A stretch of DNA of 23,371 nt, taken from the IMG/VR virus record IMGVR_UViG_3300044825_001801, positions 1-23,371 of that record; one strand, given 5' to 3'. A program made the translations under genes and the position numbers. Shown in pieces: positions 13,536-23,233 of this stretch; position 1 is the stretch's first letter; each line of letters opens with the position of its first letter. The notes beneath the pieces were generated by a model. It was given only the letters and a program-made list of their open reading frames with translations, ran no database searches and was not told the origin of the DNA. Source of the stretch: a virus.

Positions 13536-15650
13536 ATGCCGACCGGCTCCCACATCAACGGCGTCACGATCACCAACGCGGCCGAAGTCGCGTGGGAGGT
13601 GGGCATCGGCGAGCAGCCCTACACCACCACCGTTGTCGTCGCCAAGCAGGAGGCCGCCCGCCTGCGCGGCACGATGGGGCGACCCGGGACGCTGGTGGTG
13701 GCGGGCGAGTCGGGCGGGTTCACCGCGACCGGCGTCTACGTCGTGGACGAGCAGCCGACCGCGGACCCGTCCATGGTGGCGTTCACCGTCGCGGACAAGC
13801 GGTGGCTGTGGACGCGCAAGCACGTCCTGCGGCGGTACAACGTGCGCCGTCGCACGGGCAACAGGCGCTTGCTGACCGAGGGTTTCCCGGTTGAGATCCC
13901 GGGCGACGTGGCCGACGTCGCCTACGAGTCCGCGACGCTCGTGGACGGGACGAGGCCGTGGACCGCGCACGAGGCCGTCATCGACGTCGTGACCGCCGTG
14001 GACGGGGACGCGCCCGACACGTCCGGATTGCCGATCCGGCAGGTGCCGCTCGAGGGCGTCGAACTCGACGACCCCGGCGACTCGGCGATCGGGCGCGTCC
14101 TCGACTACGTCCCCGGCGCCGCGGTCTACGTCAGCATCGACGGCCGCACCCGGTTCCTCGACGAGACCGCACGGCAGGGGGCCGAGAACCTGCTGCGCCG
14201 GTTCGGTGCGCCCGTCGCCGGGCCGGGGCTCGCCGCGGCGGTGAACTACGCGGGGATCCGCCCCGAGTGGGTGGACGTGCTGTTCACCATCGAGCAGGAA
14301 CTGAAATTCACGTCGGTCGAGGAAGGCGGCGCCTACTCCCGCCGGCAGGACAAGTCGAAGTACCTCGAAAACGTCCTGCCGATCCCCGACCTGCAACTGT
14401 CGGTCGGCGGGCGCACGGTCACGCGCGGCACCTACATCACCTTCGACGAGGCGTTCACCGCGTGGGGCGTACCGAGTGCGGCTGCGGGTGGCGGGGTGGC
14501 GATCCCCGGAGCGACGCCGCCCGCGCTGTCGCACTCGCTCGTGCGCGAGTTGTGGGCGGGGGGCCGGCTGGAGGCGCTGTTCACGTCGCTCGGGCAGATC
14601 ACGGCCGAAGCGGACTGGGCGGCGCGGGTCCGTGCGGTGCGCCAGCACTACCGGCAGACGTACCGGATCAGCCCGTACTGGATGGCGCGGATCCGGTCGC
14701 TGTCGGCCGAGCGGGTGGCGGTCATCGACCCGGAGAACGGCGTGCGGGCCCCGGCGTTCGTCACGGCCGACTACGCCTACGCGCCGAGCGTGCGAGGGCG
14801 GTGGATCGACCGCAACCGGCAGGGCATCGTCATCAACGTCCGCGCGTTCAGCGAGAACCTTGCGACGGCCAAGCAGGCGCCCGCCGACGTGTCGATCGTG
14901 GACGAGCAACTGGGCATCGTCCACCTGTCCTACAGCACCGACGCGCTCGGGCTGTGGGAGCAGGTCTACCCGTGCCGGTTCGCGGAGCCGATCCCCGCGA
15001 TGGACTTCGGCAAGGGCGCGGCGGGCCCGGTCACGACCGACGGCGCGGTGTACGAGGGTGCCGCCCCGGCGATCCTGTCCGCGTCGCACCGCGTCGCCAT
15101 CGTCATCACGGCCGTCCCGAGCGCGCCGAACAGCAACGACCAGTTGTTCCGGGTGCGGGTCACGCCGAAGGAGGCCGAGAAGATCGGGCCGCCCGTCGGG
15201 GCGTGTTCGGGCCCGGGGTGGACGGTCCGCGTCGGGGCGGGCGTGGCGACGGCGCGGTTCGCGTGGGCCGACGCACAGGATGCGCTCATCGACAAGATGT
15301 TCGGCGCGGGGCGTGGCCCGTCCGAGCAGGGCGCGCCGACCTACGCAGCGGGCGACGCGATGGCCGCCGCCGGGCTGCTCGTGGACCAGCGCGAGACGAC
15401 CGCGGTCGCGCGGGCCGTGGCCGCGTCGCTCTACAGCCAGATGCCCGACCGCGTCGTCGGGCAGGTCGCCGGGCCCCTCGACGCGGGCATTTCGCCGGTC
15501 GGCAATGCGACGTCCGTGGTCCACTCGCTCGCCGCCGACGGGGCGCTCAACAGCCTCATTCGCTTCGACCGACGCACGGGCCGCCTCGACATGACCGCCC
15601 TCCTCGACAACGCGACCCGCCGCCTCCTGTTCCGGCAGGTGCAGCCGTGA
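13536..15650 (+). CDS. Tail hub / baseplate-like protein
   Basis: 704 aa. Start at ATG 13536, just after the previous stop (13531). A longer in-frame reading begins inside the previous gene but has a poor Arg-rich leader and was rejected. The N-terminal 200 residues are beta-rich with ALV-type strands and an AFTVADKRWLW segment. Around residues 175-210 the stretch GRVLDYVPGAAVYVSIDGRTRF resembles the hub fold of phage tail proteins such as T4 gp27 or Mu gp44-like hubs (P..YV...G..RF). The middle and C-terminal parts are mixed alpha/beta (ARVRAVRQHYRQTYRIS). It follows the 515-aa tail protein and precedes the fibre, consistent with a hub connecting tail tip and fibre. Confidence 0.55.
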   Translation: MPTGSHINGVTITNAAEVAWEVGIGEQPYTTTVVVAKQEAARLRGTMGRPGTLVVAGESGGFTATGVYVVDEQPTADPSMVAFTVADKRWLWTRKHVLRRYNVRRRTGNRRLLTEGFPVEIPGDVADVAYESATLVDGTRPWTAHEAVIDVVTAVDGDAPDTSGLPIRQVPLEGVELDDPGDSAIGRVLDYVPGAAVYVSIDGRTRFLDETARQGAENLLRRFGAPVAGPGLAAAVNYAGIRPEWVDVLFTIEQELKFTSVEEGGAYSRRQDKSKYLENVLPIPDLQLSVGGRTVTRGTYITFDEAFTAWGVPSAAAGGGVAIPGATPPALSHSLVRELWAGGRLEALFTSLGQITAEADWAARVRAVRQHYRQTYRISPYWMARIRSLSAERVAVIDPENGVRAPAFVTADYAYAPSVRGRWIDRNRQGIVINVRAFSENLATAKQAPADVSIVDEQLGIVHLSYSTDALGLWEQVYPCRFAEPIPAMDFGKGAAGPVTTDGAVYEGAAPAILSASHRVAIVITAVPSAPNSNDQLFRVRVTPKEAEKIGPPVGACSGPGWTVRVGAGVATARFAWADAQDALIDKMFGAGRGPSEQGAPTYAAGDAMAAAGLLVDQRETTAVARAVAASLYSQMPDRVVGQVAGPLDAGISPVGNATSVVHSLAADGALNSLIRFDRRTGRLDMTALLDNATRRLLFRQVQP

Positions 15651-18600
15651 CCCGCCTGAACGACCAGTTCGGCGGGGGCATCGACCCGTTGCAGGACCAC
15701 TCCCCGCCCGGCCGGCAGGTCATCGAGACCCGGCTGGTGCGGTACGCCGCGCGGGTGAAGGAGGTGGACCGCTACACCCGCCCCGTCATCGAGCGGGACA
15801 GCATCGGCGACGTCGTGTGCGCGGTGCGGTGGGAGCCGTCGTCGCGGCCGATCAGCGCATGGGCGCACGCCTTCCCGGTCCTCGGCGCGTCGCAGGTGCG
15901 CGCGTCGGGGCAGGCCGCGTCGCAGCAGGACGGCGGGGTGCTGGCGGCGGCGGCCCGCGGCGACGGCCCCGGGGCGAAGGGCGCGGGCAAGGGCTCGAAA
16001 CTCAAAGCCACGGCCGACGTGATCGTGCTGGACCGGTCCAAGACGTTCGGCGGCGAGGCCGGGGGCGGGTACCTGTTCGGCGGGTCCAAGGTCGGAAAGT
16101 TGGGCGCGACGGCGAGCCGCATCTACATCAACCCGCGCAGCACGTTCGCGCTCGGGTGGACGTACCCCGCGGCGCGCGTCTGGAACGCGGCACGCCGCCA
16201 GTGGGAGAACGCGGCGGGAGGCGGGGGCGCGGCGGGTGCCGCCGGGGCTGGCGGCGCGTTCGGCGCACCGGGCGGCGCCGGCATCACGGGCGTGTCGCGC
16301 ATGGCGGCGGTCACGGGCGGTGACATGCCGCCGGCGACCGACGTGGAGACGCTGCCGATCCGCGACACCGCGACGCGGCCGGACACGGACTTCCGACCGT
16401 CCACGCTGCCGCTGCCGATGGGCTACCCGTCGCTGCCGGGTGGGACGGTCGGCGTCGTCGTGGGCGGCACCGACACCAAGTCGCAGCAACCGGTCTACCT
16501 CCACGCCGACCCGCGCCTCGTCGCGGTCAACGAGGGGCCCGACCCCGGCGCGGCGTCGATCGTCTTCGACACGAACGCGCAGGGAGCCTACGACCTGTCG
16601 CGGTGGGCGCGGCTCCACTCGGCGTGGCGCGTGTCGCCCCCCTTCGTCGGCAAACTGCCGTGGGGGCAGCAGGGCGGCGGGACGCTCGCGTGGCAACTGC
16701 TCCGCGGCGAGCGCGACGGCGTGGCGGGGCACGGCGCCATCGTCGACCTCGGCTCGCTCGCGGCGGCCCCGGCGGTCACGACCGACGCGGGCGGGGTCGT
16801 CACGCCCGGGACGGGTGGCCCCGCGACGAAGTCGAAGCCGCCGCCGCTCTCCACCATCGCGGCGTCGGTCGGCAGCGGGATGTCGCTGTTCGGTGCAATC
16901 TCGGCGGCGGCGAACCGGGCCTTGATGGCGGCGTCGTGGGAGCGTGTCGCGGCGCTGGTCAAGGGTGGCGCGTCGCCGACCGGCAAGACGTCCGAGGAGC
17001 GCGCGGCGGCGCAGCGGGACGAGCCGCGCATCGCCTACGCCATCACGACCGCGCGGCAGGGCGGGCCGCTCGAGGTCGGCCACGCCAGCAAGGACCGCCA
17101 CGCCATCGGCAAGGCGGGCGACCACAACGTCAACATCGGCCACATCGCGGCGGCGGGTGCGTTCTACGCCGACCCGACCCGCGACGGACCGCTCGCGTTC
17201 GAGAAGGCGCTCTACCCGCAGGTGTCCAACTTCCCGCTCAAGGCGCGGGTGCACTTGCAGTACGCGGGCGGGTGGTCGCCCGAGGTGCGCCCCGACGGGA
17301 TCCTCCGTCTCCCCGGCGCGTGGGCGTGGTGGGCGGAGGTGCCGCACGAGACCGAGGGGGGCAAGCCTCCGCCGCCCCCGGCGCCCCCGACCACGCCGCC
17401 GACCGTCGTGCCCCCGCCGTCGCGGCCGCCGGTCAAGACGCCCGACGACCCGCTGCCGCGAGACCCGCAGGGGCGCCCCATCCGCGTCCCGATCAAGCCG
17501 CCGCTCAAGGGCGCGCGGTTCGGCCCGTACGAACCGGTCCCGGTCGTCGGCAACGTGGGCGGGACGTGGGCTGGCGGTGTCGGGGCGCCGACGGGCTCCA
17601 TGGTCCGCCGCCACCCCGACCTGCGCACTCCGGGACCGTTCCGACCGGACCAACCCGAGCCGAGGCCGCCGACGACGTGGAACCACACCGCGCACGTACG
17701 CCAGCGCGTGACGCTCGCGGGGCCGACGGATCAGGTCACGGGGTACCACACCGCGGCGGCGCACACCGCGCTGCTGTTCCGCCCGCAGGAGTTGGACGCG
17801 GGGTCGGTCGACCTCCGCACGACTGCCGACGCGCCCGCGGACCAGATCCAAGCCATCGTGTCCGAGCGCCCCATGGTTGCCCGCCTCGAAGCATGGGGCG
17901 GGCGCACGGGCGGGGTGTGGCGTCGGACGCAGGCGCTGCACGCCTCGCGGTTCATGGGCGGGACGGGCGCGGGCGGGTTGCTCCTGCTGCCGCCCGAACT
18001 CGACATGAAGGACGTCGACGTGGGCAGCACCCCGCTGTCCTCGTCGGCGTCGTACCTCGCGGCGTACCCCGGGACGTGGTTCGGCGCCGGAACGCCGGTG
18101 CTGTCGAGCGGCGCGCTCAAGACCGGCGCGCGATGGGGGTTCGACGGCACCTCGTTCGTGTTGCAGGGCCTGTCGTCGAGCGCGGTGGCGACGACGGGCG
18201 TGCGCGTCAAGACCGACGGCACCCCGGGGCTGCGCGAGTCGGGCGGCACGATCCTCGACTTGGCCGGGATCACCGACGGGCAGTACCTCAAGCGGTCGGG
18301 CTCGACGATCACGAGCGGGACCCCTAGCGCGTCGATCGCGGACGGCGACTACGGAGACGTGGCGGTGTCTGGCGGCGGGACCGTCATGGACGTGGAGTCG
18401 GTCGATGGCGTCACGCCCGGGACGACGGGCCTCGCGCTGCTTGACGACGCTACGGCGTCCGACGCGCGGACGACGCTCGGGCTCGGCGACTCGGCCACGA
18501 AGAACGTGGGGACCTCGGCGGGGACCGTCGCGGCGGGCGACGACTCGCGGCTCCCCTCGTCGGGCGAGAAGTCGGCGCTGGCGGGCACGAGCGGCACGCC

Positions 18601-19282
18601 GGGCTCCGGCAACAAGTACGTCACCGACGCGGACTCTCGCAACACGAATCAGCGCGACCCGAACGTGAGCGGGATGACGCAGGAGACGACGGTCGATCGC
18701 GCGGCCGACGTCGCCCCGATGTACGACAACAGCGCGACGGCGAACCGAAAGGTGCCGGTGCGCGACCTCGCGGTGGGCGTGCTCGACCGCGTACTGTCCG
18801 CGACGACGATCAACACCGACAACACCGAGCGGACGTTGTATTCGTTCTCTGTGCCCGGCGGAACGTTGTCGAGCAAGTACACGCTGCGCCTCGTGCTGAC
18901 CGGGACGATCCTCAACAACACCGGGTCGTCCGACTCGACGACGTTCAAGATCAAGTACGGGGCGACGACGCTCTACGCAGCGTCGCACTCCCTCGGCGCG
19001 AGCGCGAACCGCCGATCGTGGCGCATCGAGGTCGAACTGACTGGATTCAACGCGACGAACGTGCAGGAACTCGCCGGGATGTTCGCGATCGGCACGATGA
19101 CGGTCGCCACGACGGGCACCGGGGGGCTCGCGGCCACGGCGGCGACCGTCGTCCCGATCACGGGAGCGGCTGGAGCCGAGGACTCGACGGCGGACAAGAC
19201 GCTGGCCGTGACGAGTCAATTCACGGCGTCGTCCGCGAACCTCGAAATCGTGGTCCGGCGGGCCATCCTCGAACTGGTCTGA
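15647..19282 (+). CDS. Tail fibre / receptor-binding protein, 1211 aa
   Basis: 1211 aa, GTG start in a GTGA overlap; an in-frame upstream extension is an artefact of low stop density. The N-terminal 570 residues hold Gly/Ala-rich linkers and several beta regions. Residues about 571-600 are proline-rich and flexible. Near residues 905-970 the typical fibre segment LLDDATASDARTTLGLGD, GTVAAGDDSRL occurs, a widely used shaft motif of tail fibres. The last 170 residues form a Thr/Ser/Gly-rich beta domain, likely the receptor-binding head. Roles of receptor recognition and trimer assembly are family knowledge; trimerisation is inferred. It ends the structural block and is followed by a weak hairpin. 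Confidence 0.8.
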   Translation: MTRLNDQFGGGIDPLQDHSPPGRQVIETRLVRYAARVKEVDRYTRPVIERDSIGDVVCAVRWEPSSRPISAWAHAFPVLGASQVRASGQAASQQDGGVLAAAARGDGPGAKGAGKGSKLKATADVIVLDRSKTFGGEAGGGYLFGGSKVGKLGATASRIYINPRSTFALGWTYPAARVWNAARRQWENAAGGGGAAGAAGAGGAFGAPGGAGITGVSRMAAVTGGDMPPATDVETLPIRDTATRPDTDFRPSTLPLPMGYPSLPGGTVGVVVGGTDTKSQQPVYLHADPRLVAVNEGPDPGAASIVFDTNAQGAYDLSRWARLHSAWRVSPPFVGKLPWGQQGGGTLAWQLLRGERDGVAGHGAIVDLGSLAAAPAVTTDAGGVVTPGTGGPATKSKPPPLSTIAASVGSGMSLFGAISAAANRALMAASWERVAALVKGGASPTGKTSEERAAAQRDEPRIAYAITTARQGGPLEVGHASKDRHAIGKAGDHNVNIGHIAAAGAFYADPTRDGPLAFEKALYPQVSNFPLKARVHLQYAGGWSPEVRPDGILRLPGAWAWWAEVPHETEGGKPPPPPAPPTTPPTVVPPPSRPPVKTPDDPLPRDPQGRPIRVPIKPPLKGARFGPYEPVPVVGNVGGTWAGGVGAPTGSMVRRHPDLRTPGPFRPDQPEPRPPTTWNHTAHVRQRVTLAGPTDQVTGYHTAAAHTALLFRPQELDAGSVDLRTTADAPADQIQAIVSERPMVARLEAWGGRTGGVWRRTQALHASRFMGGTGAGGLLLLPPELDMKDVDVGSTPLSSSASYLAAYPGTWFGAGTPVLSSGALKTGARWGFDGTSFVLQGLSSSAVATTGVRVKTDGTPGLRESGGTILDLAGITDGQYLKRSGSTITSGTPSASIADGDYGDVAVSGGGTVMDVESVDGVTPGTTGLALLDDATASDARTTLGLGDSATKNVGTSAGTVAAGDDSRLPSSGEKSALAGTSGTPGSGNKYVTDADSRNTNQRDPNVSGMTQETTVDRAADVAPMYDNSATANRKVPVRDLAVGVLDRVLSATTINTDNTERTLYSFSVPGGTLSSKYTLRLVLTGTILNNTGSSDSTTFKIKYGATTLYAASHSLGASANRRSWRIEVELTGFNATNVQELAGMFAIGTMTVATTGTGGLAATAATVVPITGAAGAEDSTADKTLAVTSQFTASSANLEIVVRRAILELV

Positions 19283-19331: not shown

Positions 19332-19355
19332 TGTCGCCCCCTCCATGCGCAGAAT
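19332..19355 (+). promoter_or_regulatory. Promoter candidate with TGTCGCCCC and CAGAAT
   Basis: TGTCGCCCC (19332-19340), then 9 nt, then CAGAAT (19350-19355), the same layout as in the gaps before 756 and 1978. ATG 19363 is 7 nt after the hexamer, which could make this transcript leaderless. No recognisable -35 is present. Confidence 0.35.
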
Positions 19356-19362
19356 CGTGCGC
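19347..19362. repeat. Palindrome GCGCA-N6-TGCGC, copy C (operator candidate)
   Basis: Perfect arms around GAATCG, ending one base before ATG 19363. It overlaps the CAGAAT hexamer. Same architecture as copies A and B. Confidence 0.55.
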
Positions 19363-19584
19363 ATGGCCGACGACACGCCCGATAGCAAGATCGTGGACCC
19401 CGCCGCCGCCAAGGCCGCCATCGAGGCGGACCGCGTCGCGCGTGGGAAGGCCGCCGCCGAGGCGGTCCAGAAGGCGCTGACGGACTACCGCTGCACCTTC
19501 GTCGTGACCCTGCGCGCCGAGTGGGACATCCAGACCGGCACGACGCGGCACATCCCCGTCGTCGGGATCGAGCCGATCGAATGA
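19363..19584 (+). CDS. Small charged phage protein (73 aa)
   Basis: 73 aa. Start chosen at ATG 19363 (MADDTPDSK), right after palindrome copy C. Another in-frame ATG lies 18 bases earlier within the palindrome and would add MRRIVR. The first half is a charged Ala/Glu/Lys helix (AAKAAIEADRVARG). The second half, TDYRCTFVVTLRAEWDIQTG, forms a strand pair ending VVGIEPIE. This shape, helix then two strands, is common in small post-fibre phage proteins but I know no function. Its TGA overlaps the next ATG. It is probably the first gene of the right-hand transcription unit. Confidence 0.7.
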   Translation: MADDTPDSKIVDPAAAKAAIEADRVARGKAAAEAVQKALTDYRCTFVVTLRAEWDIQTGTTRHIPVVGIEPIE

Positions 19585-19919
19585 GGGGGACCGCCGACCA
19601 CAAGGCCGTCGATCCCGCCCCGGTGGGGGAGCACACGTCGCTATCGCGTCGTCGCCACCACACCAGCGAACCCGCCGGGGCTCTACGTTTCCGCCTCCCG
19701 CGCCATCGGCGGCCGGTGGACGAGTTGCGGTGCGACCCGCTCCAAGTCGAGCGCGGAACCAAACTCGTCGAGGCGAGCGCACGTGAAGAGGGGCGGTCGC
19801 ACGCCCGTGCGGGGCGCATGAGGATCAAGACGATCCCGAAGCCGTTCGTGATGGCCTACGTCGACGGCTACCTCGACGAGTGGATGAAGCGCAACCCTGT
19901 GGAGTCCGACGATGCGTAG
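19581..19919 (+). CDS. Uncertain small ORF; only the last 33 codons look reliable
   Basis: 112 aa if the ATG at 19581 (ATGA overlap) is used. The N-terminal 79 residues are unusually rich in Arg and His (for example SRRRHHTSE) and do not look like a normal domain. The last 33 residues, starting at a second ATG (19818), read MRIKTIPKPFVMAYVDGYLD and resemble a real small protein. A second frame is also open across 19582-19821, so which frame is translated between 19585 and 19817 is uncertain. This stretch also holds a structured inverted repeat. The conservative call is a 33-aa gene at 19818-19919. Confidence 0.4.
   Translation: MRGTADHKAVDPAPVGEHTSLSRRRHHTSEPAGALRFRLPRHRRPVDELRCDPLQVERGTKLVEASAREEGRSHARAGRMRIKTIPKPFVMAYVDGYLDEWMKRNPVESDDA
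19719..19769 (+). other. Structured inverted repeat, possible RNA element
   Basis: GACGAGTT (19719-19726) and AACTCGTC (19762-19769) pair perfectly. Inside, GCGG (19727-19730) and CCGC (19737-19740) make a smaller hairpin. The region codes poorly. This may be a small RNA structure, a repeat remnant or chance. Confidence 0.3.
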
Positions 19920-20256
19920 TCTCAAGATCCTCGCGGTGTGCGCCGCGGCAATCGCGCTGCCCGCGTGTTCGGGGCGTGTCGCCGCGAAGCCCGGCGTCGG
20001 CATCGGCGTCGAGCACCGGGCCGACGGGGGCCGACTCGGGCTTGACTTGGGCGAGTACGGGGTGGACGGCGCAGCCGTCGAACCCATCACCGGGAACTGC
20101 CCCGGGGGTGTCTGCTCCATCCCGTCGGCGCCGTCGCTCCCGACGCTGAAGGTGGAGCCGCGCGTCCCGGCGGGGTTCCTGTGGGCGGCGGGCCTGTTCG
20201 GCGTGTCGGTCCTCGGTCTGCTCGCGTTCGTTGTCGTCCGCAAGGTGGCGAAGTGA
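19912..20256 (+). CDS. Putative lipoprotein with C-terminal membrane segment
   Basis: 114 aa, ATG 19912 with GGAG just upstream. The N-terminus is a lipoprotein signal: basic start, hydrophobic core and lipobox LPAC with Cys19. A Gly/Asp-rich middle with two cysteines (NCPGGVCS) follows. The last 28 residues hold a second hydrophobic segment (about residues 87-109) followed by Arg/Lys. A lipid anchor at one end and a membrane segment at the other would span or bridge membranes. Its TGA overlaps the ATG of another lipoprotein. A role in lysis or superinfection exclusion is speculative. Confidence 0.7.
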   Translation: MRSLKILAVCAAAIALPACSGRVAAKPGVGIGVEHRADGGRLGLDLGEYGVDGAAVEPITGNCPGGVCSIPSAPSLPTLKVEPRVPAGFLWAAGLFGVSVLGLLAFVVVRKVAK

Positions 20257-20543
20257 TGCGCCGTTTCCTCACTATCGCGGGCCTCCTGCTCTGCCTCGGC
20301 GCGGTCGCGTGCGACCCGAACGACCCCAAGGTGGACGCGGCGAACAAGGCCGTGGACGCCACCAGCGAAATGCCCGGCTGGTTCGGCCTCATCGGGTCAC
20401 TCGGCGGAATCGCCCTGTCCGCCTTCGGCCTGCGTCGCGCCGGGGTGGGCGCGAAGTACGCTGAGGGTGGGTGGAGCAAGGAAGAGGTTGAGGAACTGGT
20501 CGTCGCCCTCCGCGGCCACGGCTACAAGGTCGAGAAGGCGTAA
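20256..20543 (+). CDS. Second putative lipoprotein, Asp+2
   Basis: 95 aa, start in a TGATG overlap with the previous stop. N-terminal signal MRRFLTIAGLLLCLGAVAC with Cys19 as the likely lipidated residue and Asp20 at +2; in Gram-negative hosts Asp+2 would mean inner-membrane retention. A short hydrophobic stretch at residues 42-60 may be a second membrane segment. The C-terminal part, WSKEEVEELVVALRGHGYKV, is a charged helix. It follows directly on another lipobox protein, so the two may form a pair. No family identified. Confidence 0.7.
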   Translation: MRRFLTIAGLLLCLGAVACDPNDPKVDAANKAVDATSEMPGWFGLIGSLGGIALSAFGLRRAGVGAKYAEGGWSKEEVEELVVALRGHGYKVEKA

Positions 20544-20545
20544 TC

Positions 20546-20815
20546 GTGGCGGGACTCAGCGCACTACCGAACTGGGTGAAAGGCTGGGGCACGTTCGGCC
20601 TCGGTGTCGCCGGTGGTGTGTTCGTCGCCGCGACGTACCTGTCGGAGGTGAGGACCGAGGCGTACCGCGCCGGCAAGGCGAGCGACGCGCTCGAGCCCCG
20701 CGTGCAGCGTCTCGAAGTCGAGGCAGCCGCGGCGCGGGAGGCCGCGCAGGCGCTCAAGGAAAAGGTCGCCGACATCGGCGCCGACGTGAAGGAACTGTTG
20801 CGGAGGGTGAAGTGA
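20546..20815 (+). CDS. Membrane-anchored coiled-coil protein (holin/spanin-like candidate)
   Basis: 89 aa, GTG start three bases after the previous stop. Residues about 14-32 form one hydrophobic, Gly-rich segment; residues about 49-88 form a coiled coil (RVQRLEVEAAAAREAAQALKEK). One N-terminal membrane helix plus a coiled coil resembles inner-membrane spanins (Rz) or XhlA-like lysis accessory proteins, but no motif proves this. No endolysin is visible within this window. Its end overlaps the next GTG. Confidence 0.65.
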   Translation: MAGLSALPNWVKGWGTFGLGVAGGVFVAATYLSEVRTEAYRAGKASDALEPRVQRLEVEAAAAREAAQALKEKVADIGADVKELLRRVK

Positions 20816-20961
20816 CGCGCCCTCGGCCTGTACTGCTCGCGCTCGGCTTTCTGTTCGGCCTCGCCGCTGGGTTGGCGACCTGCTCCCGCAGTTGCTGTGA
20901 CCGGTCGCCGCTTGCGTCATTCGTCGCGCGGGCCCGTGCCGCGCTGGGGCTACCCGCATGA
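20812..20961 (+). CDS. Tiny membrane or lipobox protein (49 aa)
   Basis: 49 aa, GTG in overlap with the previous stop. One hydrophobic segment (residues 7-22) ends in LATC (Cys24), which could be a lipobox, and two more cysteines follow (SRSCCD). The C-terminus is a short basic/Ala helix. As a spanin partner it would pair with the upstream coiled-coil protein, since o-spanins are often very short lipoproteins encoded next to i-spanins, but in a Gram-positive host this would not apply. Low certainty of function. Confidence 0.55.
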   Translation: MTRPRPVLLALGFLFGLAAGLATCSRSCCDRSPLASFVARARAALGLPA

Positions 20962-21206
20962 TCCCCGCTCCCGGTACCTACCGAATCTCCACGGACGGCG
21001 CCCCGTCGTCTGACGTCGTGGTGAGCCCCGACGGGCAGACGCTGACGACGACGTTCGACGTGTTCGACTACCAGCCCGCGCTCGGGGTCTACAAGGCGCG
21101 GCGGTTGTCGTGCGCGATCGAGTGCAACGGCAACGGCACGGGGCTGTCCTTCGTGGGGCAGTACCCGGGGTTCCCGACGGACATTACCTGCGTGAGGCTG
21201 CCGTGA
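20958..21206 (+). CDS. Small beta-rich protein (82 aa)
   Basis: 82 aa, ATG in an overlap with the previous TGA. A beta-rich, Thr/Ser/Gly-heavy sequence: TYRISTDGAPSSDVVVSPDG, then LTTTFDVFDYQPALG and a C-rich middle (LSCAIECNGNGTG). Three cysteines may form a disulfide if it is exported, but no signal peptide is seen. It lies in the cluster of membrane and lipobox proteins. I do not recognise the family. Confidence 0.65.
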   Translation: MIPAPGTYRISTDGAPSSDVVVSPDGQTLTTTFDVFDYQPALGVYKARRLSCAIECNGNGTGLSFVGQYPGFPTDITCVRLP

Positions 21207-21463
21207 TCCCGCGCGAGCCCGAAGTGCCCGCGTGGGTCAACGCGGTCCTGTGGGCCCTCGTCGTGGCCGCCGTCGTCGTCCTCGCGTTGACGACGGGATG
21301 CTGCACCTCGCGGGTGGCGCCGGACCCCGCGGCGGCCGGCGCCTCCCCGTCGTGGGCTGACTACGTCATGTCACACCCGTACCGGCGCGCGCTCGACCCC
21401 GCGGTCGCGCACCCGGACTGGCGCGGGCCCCACAGCACGTGCGGCGCGGGGAAGTGCGAGTAG
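21203..21463 (+). CDS. Putative lipoprotein with uncleaved-like anchor (86 aa)
   Basis: 86 aa, GTG in a GTGA overlap. A hydrophobic segment (residues about 14-29) ends in LTTGCC, where Cys33 fits a lipobox. The N-terminus before it carries two Glu and one Arg and two prolines, which is unusual for a signal peptide, so a plain membrane anchor is also possible. The rest is Pro/Ala-rich with a His/Trp/Tyr-containing tail and ends GKCE. The stop region is duplicated at the end of the next gene (see the 17-base repeat). Confidence 0.6.
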   Translation: MIPREPEVPAWVNAVLWALVVAAVVVLALTTGCCTSRVAPDPAAAGASPSWADYVMSHPYRRALDPAVAHPDWRGPHSTCGAGKCE

Positions 21464-21489: not shown

Positions 21490-21867
21490 ATGGACATCCT
21501 CGACATCGAGAAGATCGCTCGCGTCTGCCACGAGGCGAACCGCGCGTGGTGCGTCACGCTCGGTGACCGCTCGCAGCCCGCGTGGGACGACGCGCCCGAG
21601 TGGATGGTGAAGTCCGCCATCGATGGCGTGCGCGCCGCGCTCTCCAACAAGGCGGGCGCCGCCGGGCTGCACAACGCTTGGTGCGAGGCGAAGCGCCGCG
21701 ACGGTTGGGTGTTCGGCCCGGTCAAGGACGCGGTCGCCAAGACGCACCCGTGCCTCGTCCCGTACGACGACCTTCCCGCCGAGCAGCGGGCCAAGGACGC
21801 GCTGTTCGAGGCAGTCGTCGGGGCGCTGCGGTGGTCGTTCGCGGACGACCCCCTGAAGTGCGAGTAG
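21490..21867 (+). CDS. RyR-domain phage protein
   Basis: 125 aa. I chose ATG 21490 with AGGAG at 21481-21485; a GTG at 21463 is in frame but would add a low-complexity leader. The sequence IARVCHEANRAWCVTLGD, SQPAWDDAPEWM, then GWVFGPVKDAVAKTHPCLVPYDDLPAEQRAKD matches the RyR repeat found in phage proteins and named after ryanodine receptors. The conserved Trp residues, the 'HPCLVPYDELP' block and the final 'KD.LF..VV' helix are present. In phages the role is unknown; ligand binding is likely. It ends in KCE, like the preceding gene. Confidence 0.85.
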   Translation: MDILDIEKIARVCHEANRAWCVTLGDRSQPAWDDAPEWMVKSAIDGVRAALSNKAGAAGLHNAWCEAKRRDGWVFGPVKDAVAKTHPCLVPYDDLPAEQRAKDALFEAVVGALRWSFADDPLKCE

Positions 21868-22136: not shown

Positions 22137-22350
22137 GTCGAAGTTCTGCGAGACCTGCCGCTGGATGCGGCGCTCCCCCAAGGGCGCCGAGTACCTGCGT
22201 CGGCTCATCGAACTGCACGACGCGGGCGACCGGCGGGCGACGTTCGCCGCCATCGTTCGGCTCGCCGCCGACGCCCACGACTTCCCACTCGGAGTCGGGG
22301 CGCTGAAGATGCACTACCACCGGCAGCGGGACGGGGGTTGCGATGCGTAA
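22084..22350 (+). CDS. Small protein with CxxC and possible helix-turn-helix (88 aa)
   Basis: 88 aa, GGAGG just upstream of ATG 22084. It has one CETC pair near residue 22, followed by an Arg-rich CRWMRRSPKG that echoes the CATCRWW of the protein at 2498. The C-terminal half (RRATFAAIVRLAADAHDFPLG then ALKMHYHRQRD) reads like a helix-turn-helix with a basic recognition helix. A DNA-binding or small-terminase-like role is possible, but with only one CxxC a full zinc site is not shown. Overlaps the phosphoesterase start by eight bases. Confidence 0.6.
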   Translation: MAKERSADADLAALGTRRSKFCETCRWMRRSPKGAEYLRRLIELHDAGDRRATFAAIVRLAADAHDFPLGVGALKMHYHRQRDGGCDA

Positions 22351-23233
22351 GGACCCCGACCCGGATGCCGACCTCGCGCGGTTGACCTGCTACCTCTCGC
22401 CCGAGCAGATCCGCGACGAGATCCGGCGGGAGGCGGCGGCCGTCTCGCGCAAGTGCCGACGGTTCAAGCCGACCGGCAAACCTCACCGCCTCGGCGTCGT
22501 GCTGTCCGACGTCCACGTCCCGAAGCACGACCCGGCGTCGTGGGCGGTGGCGCTCAAGGCGGTCCGCGACCTCCGCCCCGACCACGTTTGGATCCTCGGT
22601 GACTTCCTCGACCTCGCGTCGGTGAACCGCCACGAGAAGGCGCCGGGCGACGACTACACGCTGCGGCAGGAGTTGTGGTGTGGCAACCGGGCGCTCGACG
22701 AGGTGGCCGACGCCATCGGCCCGCGCCCGTGCGACCTCCTGTTCGTGGACGGGAACCACGAGGACCGGATGCGGCGCTACGTCGCGTCGGGCCGCTGCCC
22801 GCCCGAGTTGCGCGACGCGCTCGAAGAGGTGCCCGAGGCGCTGTGCCTCAAGCAGCGCGGGTGGCGCTACGTCGGGCCCGACGAGCAGCCGATCTACGAC
22901 GGCTCGCTCGCGGTGTTTCACGGGCACTGGTACGGGAAGCACCACGCGGCCAAGCACCTCGACGAGATGGGCGGCAGCGTCATCTACGGCCACACGCACC
23001 GGCCGCAGCAGATGACGCGGCAGACGGTGCGGGGCCCGATCATCGGCACCGGGGCGCCGTGCTTGCGGCGACTGTCGGCGGAGTGGCAGCACCAGCGGAA
23101 CCGCGAGTTCACGGGCTGGCTCAACGGGTTCGTCGTCCTCGAGTGGATCGACGGGTACTGCCACCCTCGCAACGTGTTCGTGGTGAACGGGTGCGCGTCG
23201 TACGGGGGCAGGGTGTGGAGGGCGGCGCAGTGA
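22343..23233 (+). CDS. Calcineurin-like metallophosphoesterase
   Basis: 296 aa. All family motifs are in order: SDVHVP (Asp56, His58), GDFLD (Gly86-Asp87), GNHE (Asn138-His139), FHGHW (His193, His195) and GHTHRP (His217, His219). These bind two metal ions and make up the catalytic site of calcineurin-like phosphoesterases. The N-terminal 45 residues are a charged helical extension before the domain. Substrate unknown; phage members are linked with DNA or RNA end processing or nucleotide phosphate removal. It is coupled (GTGA) with a P-loop kinase, which hints at a shared substrate such as nucleic-acid ends. Confidence 0.9.
   Translation: MRKDPDPDADLARLTCYLSPEQIRDEIRREAAAVSRKCRRFKPTGKPHRLGVVLSDVHVPKHDPASWAVALKAVRDLRPDHVWILGDFLDLASVNRHEKAPGDDYTLRQELWCGNRALDEVADAIGPRPCDLLFVDGNHEDRMRRYVASGRCPPELRDALEEVPEALCLKQRGWRYVGPDEQPIYDGSLAVFHGHWYGKHHAAKHLDEMGGSVIYGHTHRPQQMTRQTVRGPIIGTGAPCLRRLSAEWQHQRNREFTGWLNGFVVLEWIDGYCHPRNVFVVNGCASYGGRVWRAAQ

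Follow-up and report, generated by a model that had tools for sequence, protein, structure and literature searches.

A recurring group of genes for small membrane proteins and lipoproteins behind the tail genes of uncultured phages with Mu-like head proteins, a candidate membrane part of a lysis cassette

Introduction

What function is encoded by the row of very small genes that follows the tail genes in an uncultured virus contig, IMG/VR record IMGVR_UViG_3300044825_001801? The window analysed here is the entire contig, a linear fragment of 23,371 bases with a GC content of 71%. The initial annotation, made from the sequence alone, had described a row of five tiny membrane or lipobox proteins at positions 19912-21463, coupled by overlaps and with no endolysin in the window, and had proposed a multi-part lysis set, a superinfection-exclusion system or a membrane-bound anti-defence system. 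These options were compared using the features of the individual proteins, the gene content of related contigs and searches for a wall-cutting enzyme.

Gene order and membrane features of the row

The window leads from a probable portal gene, named from its gene position, through head, neck and tail genes to the small genes that include the row, and then to an RyR-domain gene and a metallophosphoesterase gene (Table 1). A second contig (L001) is 99.985% identical to the window, and the first window gene extends upstream there. The row itself comprises six short open reading frames joined by overlaps of 1-4 nt or a gap of 2 nt, so that both the row and its coupling stood as initially described, while the count rose by one frame, the overlooked 82-aa product being soluble. 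The GC content at codon position 3 is 0.86-0.95 in five of the frames and 0.74 in the 49-aa frame.

Lipoboxes were judged by the PROSITE pattern PS51257 and hydropathy by the Kyte-Doolittle scale in a 19-residue window. Strong hydrophobic segments were found in the 114-aa (2.33, residues 91-109), 86-aa (2.55) and 49-aa (2.08) proteins, and among the row proteins PS51257 lipoboxes were confined to the 95-aa (AVAC, C19) and 86-aa (TTGC, C33) proteins. Among the 31 other window genes, two had a strong segment and none a lipobox; for the 77 uncalled open reading frames of 45-130 aa, the corresponding numbers were three and one, and none combined a lipobox with a second segment. Membrane features are denser in the row than in the rest of the window or the uncalled frames, with part of the hydropathy being accounted for by composition alone (residue shuffles, P 0.08 to 0.2 for three row proteins).

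Table 1. Coordinates of features in the window and in related contigs
Feature	Position	Strand	Remark
Probable portal, C-terminal part	window left end	+	
MuF-like protein, then Mu gpT-like head protein, then neck and tail proteins	after portal	+	
Tail gene of alignment A2	13536-15650	+	alignment query for relatives
Large last tail gene	15647-19282	+	small genes come next
79-aa soluble protein	19345..19584	+	from a family with a conserved '..KHRC..' region
114-aa frame	19912-20256	+	
95-aa frame	20256-20543	+	
89-aa frame	20546-20815	+	
49-aa frame	20812-20961	+	
82-aa frame	20958-21206	+	
86-aa frame	21203-21463	+	
RyR-domain protein	21490-21867	+	PF02026, E 9e-12; directly after row
Metallophosphoesterase	22343-23233	+	
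2OG-Fe(II) oxygenase	L032:209-916, L049:17752-18465, L073:16998-17690		Pfam match in L032; others by clustering
GGQGR protein, eight distinct sequences	L031:2352-2498, L032:2402-2512, L063:17087-17236, L073:18168-18314, L077:84-233, L095:2984-3118	-	
Papain-type C1 peptidase, 266 aa	L029:6122-6922		in equivalent cassette of G006; possible wall-cutting enzyme
Exported-looking protein of about 650 aa	L033:833-2797; L099:4069-5997	L099: -	

Recurrence of the cassette in related contigs

Direct searches with the small proteins of the row returned no relatives, the 95-aa and 89-aa proteins finding none in viral contigs or GenBank phages, and no viral contig was found with the metallophosphoesterase or with a single-sequence query of the tail protein. 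The head protein alone found a few contigs and its alignment 20, and the tail-gene alignment (A2) found 41 viral contigs at 26-35% identity. The window and every relative found are uncultured virus contigs.

Across 25 usable loci, window included, the six short genes that come first behind the last big tail gene were compared with genes elsewhere. Membrane or lipobox proteins made up 42 of the 132 proteins in this post-tail slot and 45 of the 347 elsewhere (odds ratio 3.1, Fisher p 5e-6), bearing in mind that the phages are related and their genes non-independent. A protein with a membrane segment and a coiled-coil-like charged part is encoded beside a lipoprotein in nine loci (L038, L049, L050, L053, L058, L059, L073, L074 and L076), and the same pairing is present in G001, there before the portal gene. 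The recurring parts are a family of soluble proteins that includes the 79-aa protein of the window, a membrane segment with a coiled coil, and a lipoprotein that frequently carries another hydrophobic segment. By phmmer the soluble family, whose members are mostly 74-107 aa long, spans 16 loci, i.e. the window and one protein from each of 15 others, with the window protein joining it at E 3.2e-5 and 7e-5. The membrane and lipoprotein parts are mostly without detectable sequence similarity across the relatives, and their equivalence therefore rests on layout and position. The topology of the coiled-coil protein is not uniform, since its membrane segment lies at the C-terminus in L053, L055, L063 and L073. 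In G028 and G012, which look complete, few membrane proteins are predicted genome-wide, and those of the cassette are among them. Weak spanin profile matches were seen in the equivalent cassettes of L029 (phrog_812, E 0.003) and L031 (phrog_214, E 0.03). The cassette of small membrane proteins is real and recurring, and is built from known kinds of parts in diverged form.

Three relatives (G004, L049 and L073) encode a 2OG-Fe(II) oxygenase, roughly 235 aa long, in or beside the cassette. Separately, the minus strand of several relatives encodes, outside the tail genes, a tiny protein of 36-49 aa with a single membrane segment and the motif GGQGR, which is absent from the window.

Individual proteins of the row

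The 114-aa protein begins with a signal-like helix and a lipobox-like LPAC at residues 16-19, which fails PS51257 owing to Pro at -2, continues through a Gly/Pro-rich linker of 67 residues carrying Cys63 and Cys68, and ends in a membrane helix followed by an RKVAK tail. A single-sequence AlphaFold2 model (mean pLDDT 57) placed helices at 3-19 and 87-113, left the linker unstructured and contained no strands; if extended, the linker could span a periplasm. The combination of a lipid anchor and a C-terminal membrane helix in one protein, initially regarded as unusual, has precedent because exactly this combination defines the u-spanins, with T1 gp11 as the prototype (PMC6139136). Spanins have been catalogued as 143 i-, 125 o- and 13 u-spanin families with more than 40% singletons; a periplasmic cysteine is lacking in 58 of the 58 catalogued u-spanins, and lipoboxes that depart from the pattern, AWAC for example, can be functional (PMC6139136). 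The C-terminal transmembrane helix of the 114-aa protein agrees with this class and its two periplasmic cysteines do not. Owing to these cysteines and the irregular lipobox, it is described here as u-spanin-like rather than as a proven member; if confirmed, u-spanin-like proteins with periplasmic cysteines would join a class in which none is known.

The 95-aa protein carries a valid lipobox with Asp at +2, a spacer of 23 residues, a second hydrophobic segment that is weak or borderline (1.75 over 17 residues, 1.50 over 19) and a charged C-terminal tail. Asp at +2 is an inner-membrane retention signal in E. coli, and the spacer has too few residues to cross a periplasm. It therefore departs from the u-spanins in its short spacer, where they have a long linker, in the Asp at +2, where they have an outer-membrane-directed anchor, and in the weak segment, where they have a C-terminal transmembrane domain. 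Of the two lipoproteins with extra membrane segments originally proposed, the 95-aa protein thus keeps its lipobox with a borderline second segment, and the 114-aa protein keeps its helix with a non-canonical lipobox.

In the 89-aa protein, an N-terminal borderline membrane segment (about residues 13-31, hydropathy 1.45/1.58) precedes a charged coiled-coil-like tail, so that the membrane anchor of the coiled coil described earlier is supported only at borderline hydropathy. The positive charges around the segment (K12 before it; R36, R42 and K45 after) suggest a C-in topology rather than the N-in/C-out of an i-spanin. Profile matches were sub-threshold: XhlA (PF10779) at E 0.01 and 16.4 bits against a cut-off of 34.7, over the coiled-coil part only, and the Rz-like spanin family phrog_1152 at E 0.17. 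DUF2730 (PF10805) had no match in the window at E <= 1; the counterpart in G001 matched it at E 0.007, which is below the cut-off and a threshold at which most control genomes also match.

The 49-aa frame encodes one membrane segment and has a weak coding signal; it was missed by the gene caller, and a GGAGG is well placed before its GTG start. Its assignment as a lipobox protein was withdrawn, since LATC, with Thr at -1, fails PS51257. The 82-aa protein contains cysteine and has no membrane segment; small soluble proteins occupy a similar place in L029, L050, L070 and L076, with no sequence match to it by phmmer. The 86-aa protein has a strong N-terminal membrane segment ending in the lipobox-like TTGC, in agreement with the further lipobox protein first reported, and two more cysteines near its end; it is weakly linked to L053 15582-15791 (phmmer E 3e-4, largely hydrophobic).

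Search for an endolysin

In line with the initial statement, searches of the window, Pfam scans of the structural proteins included, recognised no peptidoglycan hydrolase, although this proves little because the entire contig is a linear fragment of 23.4 kb. The suggested search beyond the window, carried into complete-looking relatives, yielded no endolysin either. Identical contig ends of 75-152 bases in G004, G012, G015, G019, G026 and G028, which are classed as linear and are 41-48 kb long, suggest that these six are complete circular assemblies. No wall hydrolase was found in them by Pfam (proteins of at least 95 aa, one per cluster, excluding core structural clusters and a few dubious frames). 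Phage_lysozyme and Amidase_2 were absent from 28 related contigs, and M15_3, SLT and Peptidase_C1 had no match in 13 records, window included.

These negatives have limits, as the Peptidase_C1 profile missed the 266-aa protein of the equivalent cassette in G006, whose papain link is known only via relatives. No Pfam profile reaches this protein (Peptidase_C39_2 at E 0.05, Peptidase_C1 not at all), yet Peptidase_C1 does match relatives of it in Burkholderia phage FLC9 and Alicyclobacillus phage MMB025. In MMB025 the matching region is the N-terminal domain of an annotated endolysin, whose other domains include glycoside-hydrolase-like and peptidoglycan-binding domains. A structure model of the G006 protein was useless (pLDDT 35).

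An exported-looking protein of about 650 aa (654 aa in G004) adjoins a SASA-type esterase before the portal gene in G004 and clusters with proteins of four other relatives. It was considered as a hidden endolysin and rejected, since searches of Pfam, PHROG and GenBank phages gave no match and those of the PDB none that was meaningful.

Discussion

Of the options proposed at the outset, a multi-part lysis set agrees best with the data because the row is post-tail, co-directional, translationally coupled and recurring in relatives with conserved layout and diverged sequence. Retention of layout with loss of sequence is as known for spanins (PMC6139136) and counts for this reading. So do the enrichment and repeated pairing in the slot, the weak spanin profile matches in L029 and L031, the cassette genes of G028 and G012 with their share of the few membrane proteins, and the C1 peptidase in the G006 cassette with its similarity to a domain of an annotated endolysin. 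On balance, with odds slightly better than even, the row supplies the membrane components of a lysis cassette whose endolysin is either unrecognised or outside the fragment. As the closing section of the late (tail) operon, it would provide the membrane-acting functions. The 89-aa protein would most likely be located in the inner membrane as a regulator of the holin or releasin kind. The lipoproteins, with the 114-aa protein foremost, would be spanin-like, bridging and fusing the inner and outer membranes once the wall has been cut by an enzyme that may lie outside the fragment or belong to an unrecognised family. The frames, their layout and position, and the recurrence of this layout in relatives are observed; each of these functional steps presumes the predicted membrane locations and topologies and a Gram-negative host, and the spanin reading would fall if the host were Gram-positive. 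Searches for a host among bacterial genomes with the head- and tail-protein alignments, and among plasmids and phages with one relative's head protein, found none, nor were there tRNA genes as a host clue in the relatives scanned.

Several observations weigh against a lysis function. No row protein reaches the cut-off of any lysis family in Pfam or PHROG, and no recognised endolysin lies nearby or in the six circular-looking relatives. A spanin role is further opposed by the non-canonical lipobox and periplasmic cysteines of the 114-aa protein and by the short spacer and Asp at +2 of the 95-aa protein. A classical Rz/Rz1-like pair, with the 89-aa protein as i-spanin and the product of the overlapping 49-aa frame as o-spanin, would agree with the overlapping gene order and the weak Rz-like match, but the invalid lipobox and weak coding signal of the 49-aa frame and the C-in charges of the 89-aa protein make it very unlikely. 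It is improbable, too, that the group lacks a conventional endolysin, in which case these Mu-head phages would lyse their hosts through small membrane proteins and lipoproteins, alone or with an undescribed wall-cutting enzyme. The favoured lysis reading, if confirmed, would mark an uncultured phage group whose lysis enzyme escapes the tested families, and the complete-looking relatives of 41-48 kb make the question directly testable.

Two further explanations place the row outside lysis. Late coating of the envelope by lipoproteins could keep further phages from adsorbing or delivering their DNA. The row does encode more than one protein with a lipobox, which speaks for such superinfection exclusion, small phage lipoproteins with this role, e.g. 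T5 Llp, being known. However, known defence and anti-defence systems had no PADLOC match to any row protein, no Pfam or PHROG match pointed that way, and the post-tail slot with its recurring pairing of lipoproteins with a membrane segment and coiled coil fits lysis better, so that neither exclusion nor the anti-defence option gains support, exclusion being distinctly unlikely. The genes could instead be a loose gathering of unrelated small envelope proteins at the end of the late operon. The varying content of the slot, with its oxygenases (G004, L049, L073), the C1 peptidase of G006 and small soluble proteins between membrane genes, is consistent with such a gathering, as is the observation that the membrane proteins of the window are nearly all singletons; the enrichment of membrane and lipobox genes and their repeated pairing in the slot argue against it, and it is considered unlikely.

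The lysis reading can be set against known systems. With the u-spanin T1 gp11, the 114-aa protein shares a signal-like N-terminus with a lipobox-like motif, a periplasm-sized linker and a C-terminal helix with a positive tail, and the combination of a lipobox with a second hydrophobic segment recurs in the relatives. It differs in its non-canonical lipobox, its two periplasmic cysteines, and the lack of a sequence family match and of an endolysin beside it; a beta-rich periplasmic domain has been described for the T1 gp11 family, and the low-confidence model obtained here has no strands. As in lambda Rz/Rz1 and P2 LysB/LysC, the gene for a coiled-coil membrane protein adjoins a lipoprotein gene in the relatives, but in four of these (L053, L055, L063 and L073) the coiled-coil protein bears its membrane segment C-terminally, and the window showed no recognisable o-spanin with a valid lipobox in an overlapped or embedded frame.

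The resemblance of the 89-aa protein to the Mu releasin (PMC9239132) and to LysF1b (PMC13056207) is confined to layout. Like the releasin gp25, a DUF2730 protein, it has an N-terminal membrane segment, borderline here, and a charged tail, for which the positive-inside rule suggests a C-in placement, and these phages share Mu-like head proteins (gpT, MuF); it differs in having no DUF2730 match and no endolysin seen nearby, whereas in active phages an endolysin is encoded within five genes of DUF2730 (PMC9239132). The LysF1b-like holin-like proteins of mycobacteriophages differ in host cell wall and sequence, and the LysF1b cassette holds lysin A and B (PMC13056207), but they share with the 89-aa protein one N-terminal membrane segment, a predicted N-out/C-in topology and a charged C-terminal domain.
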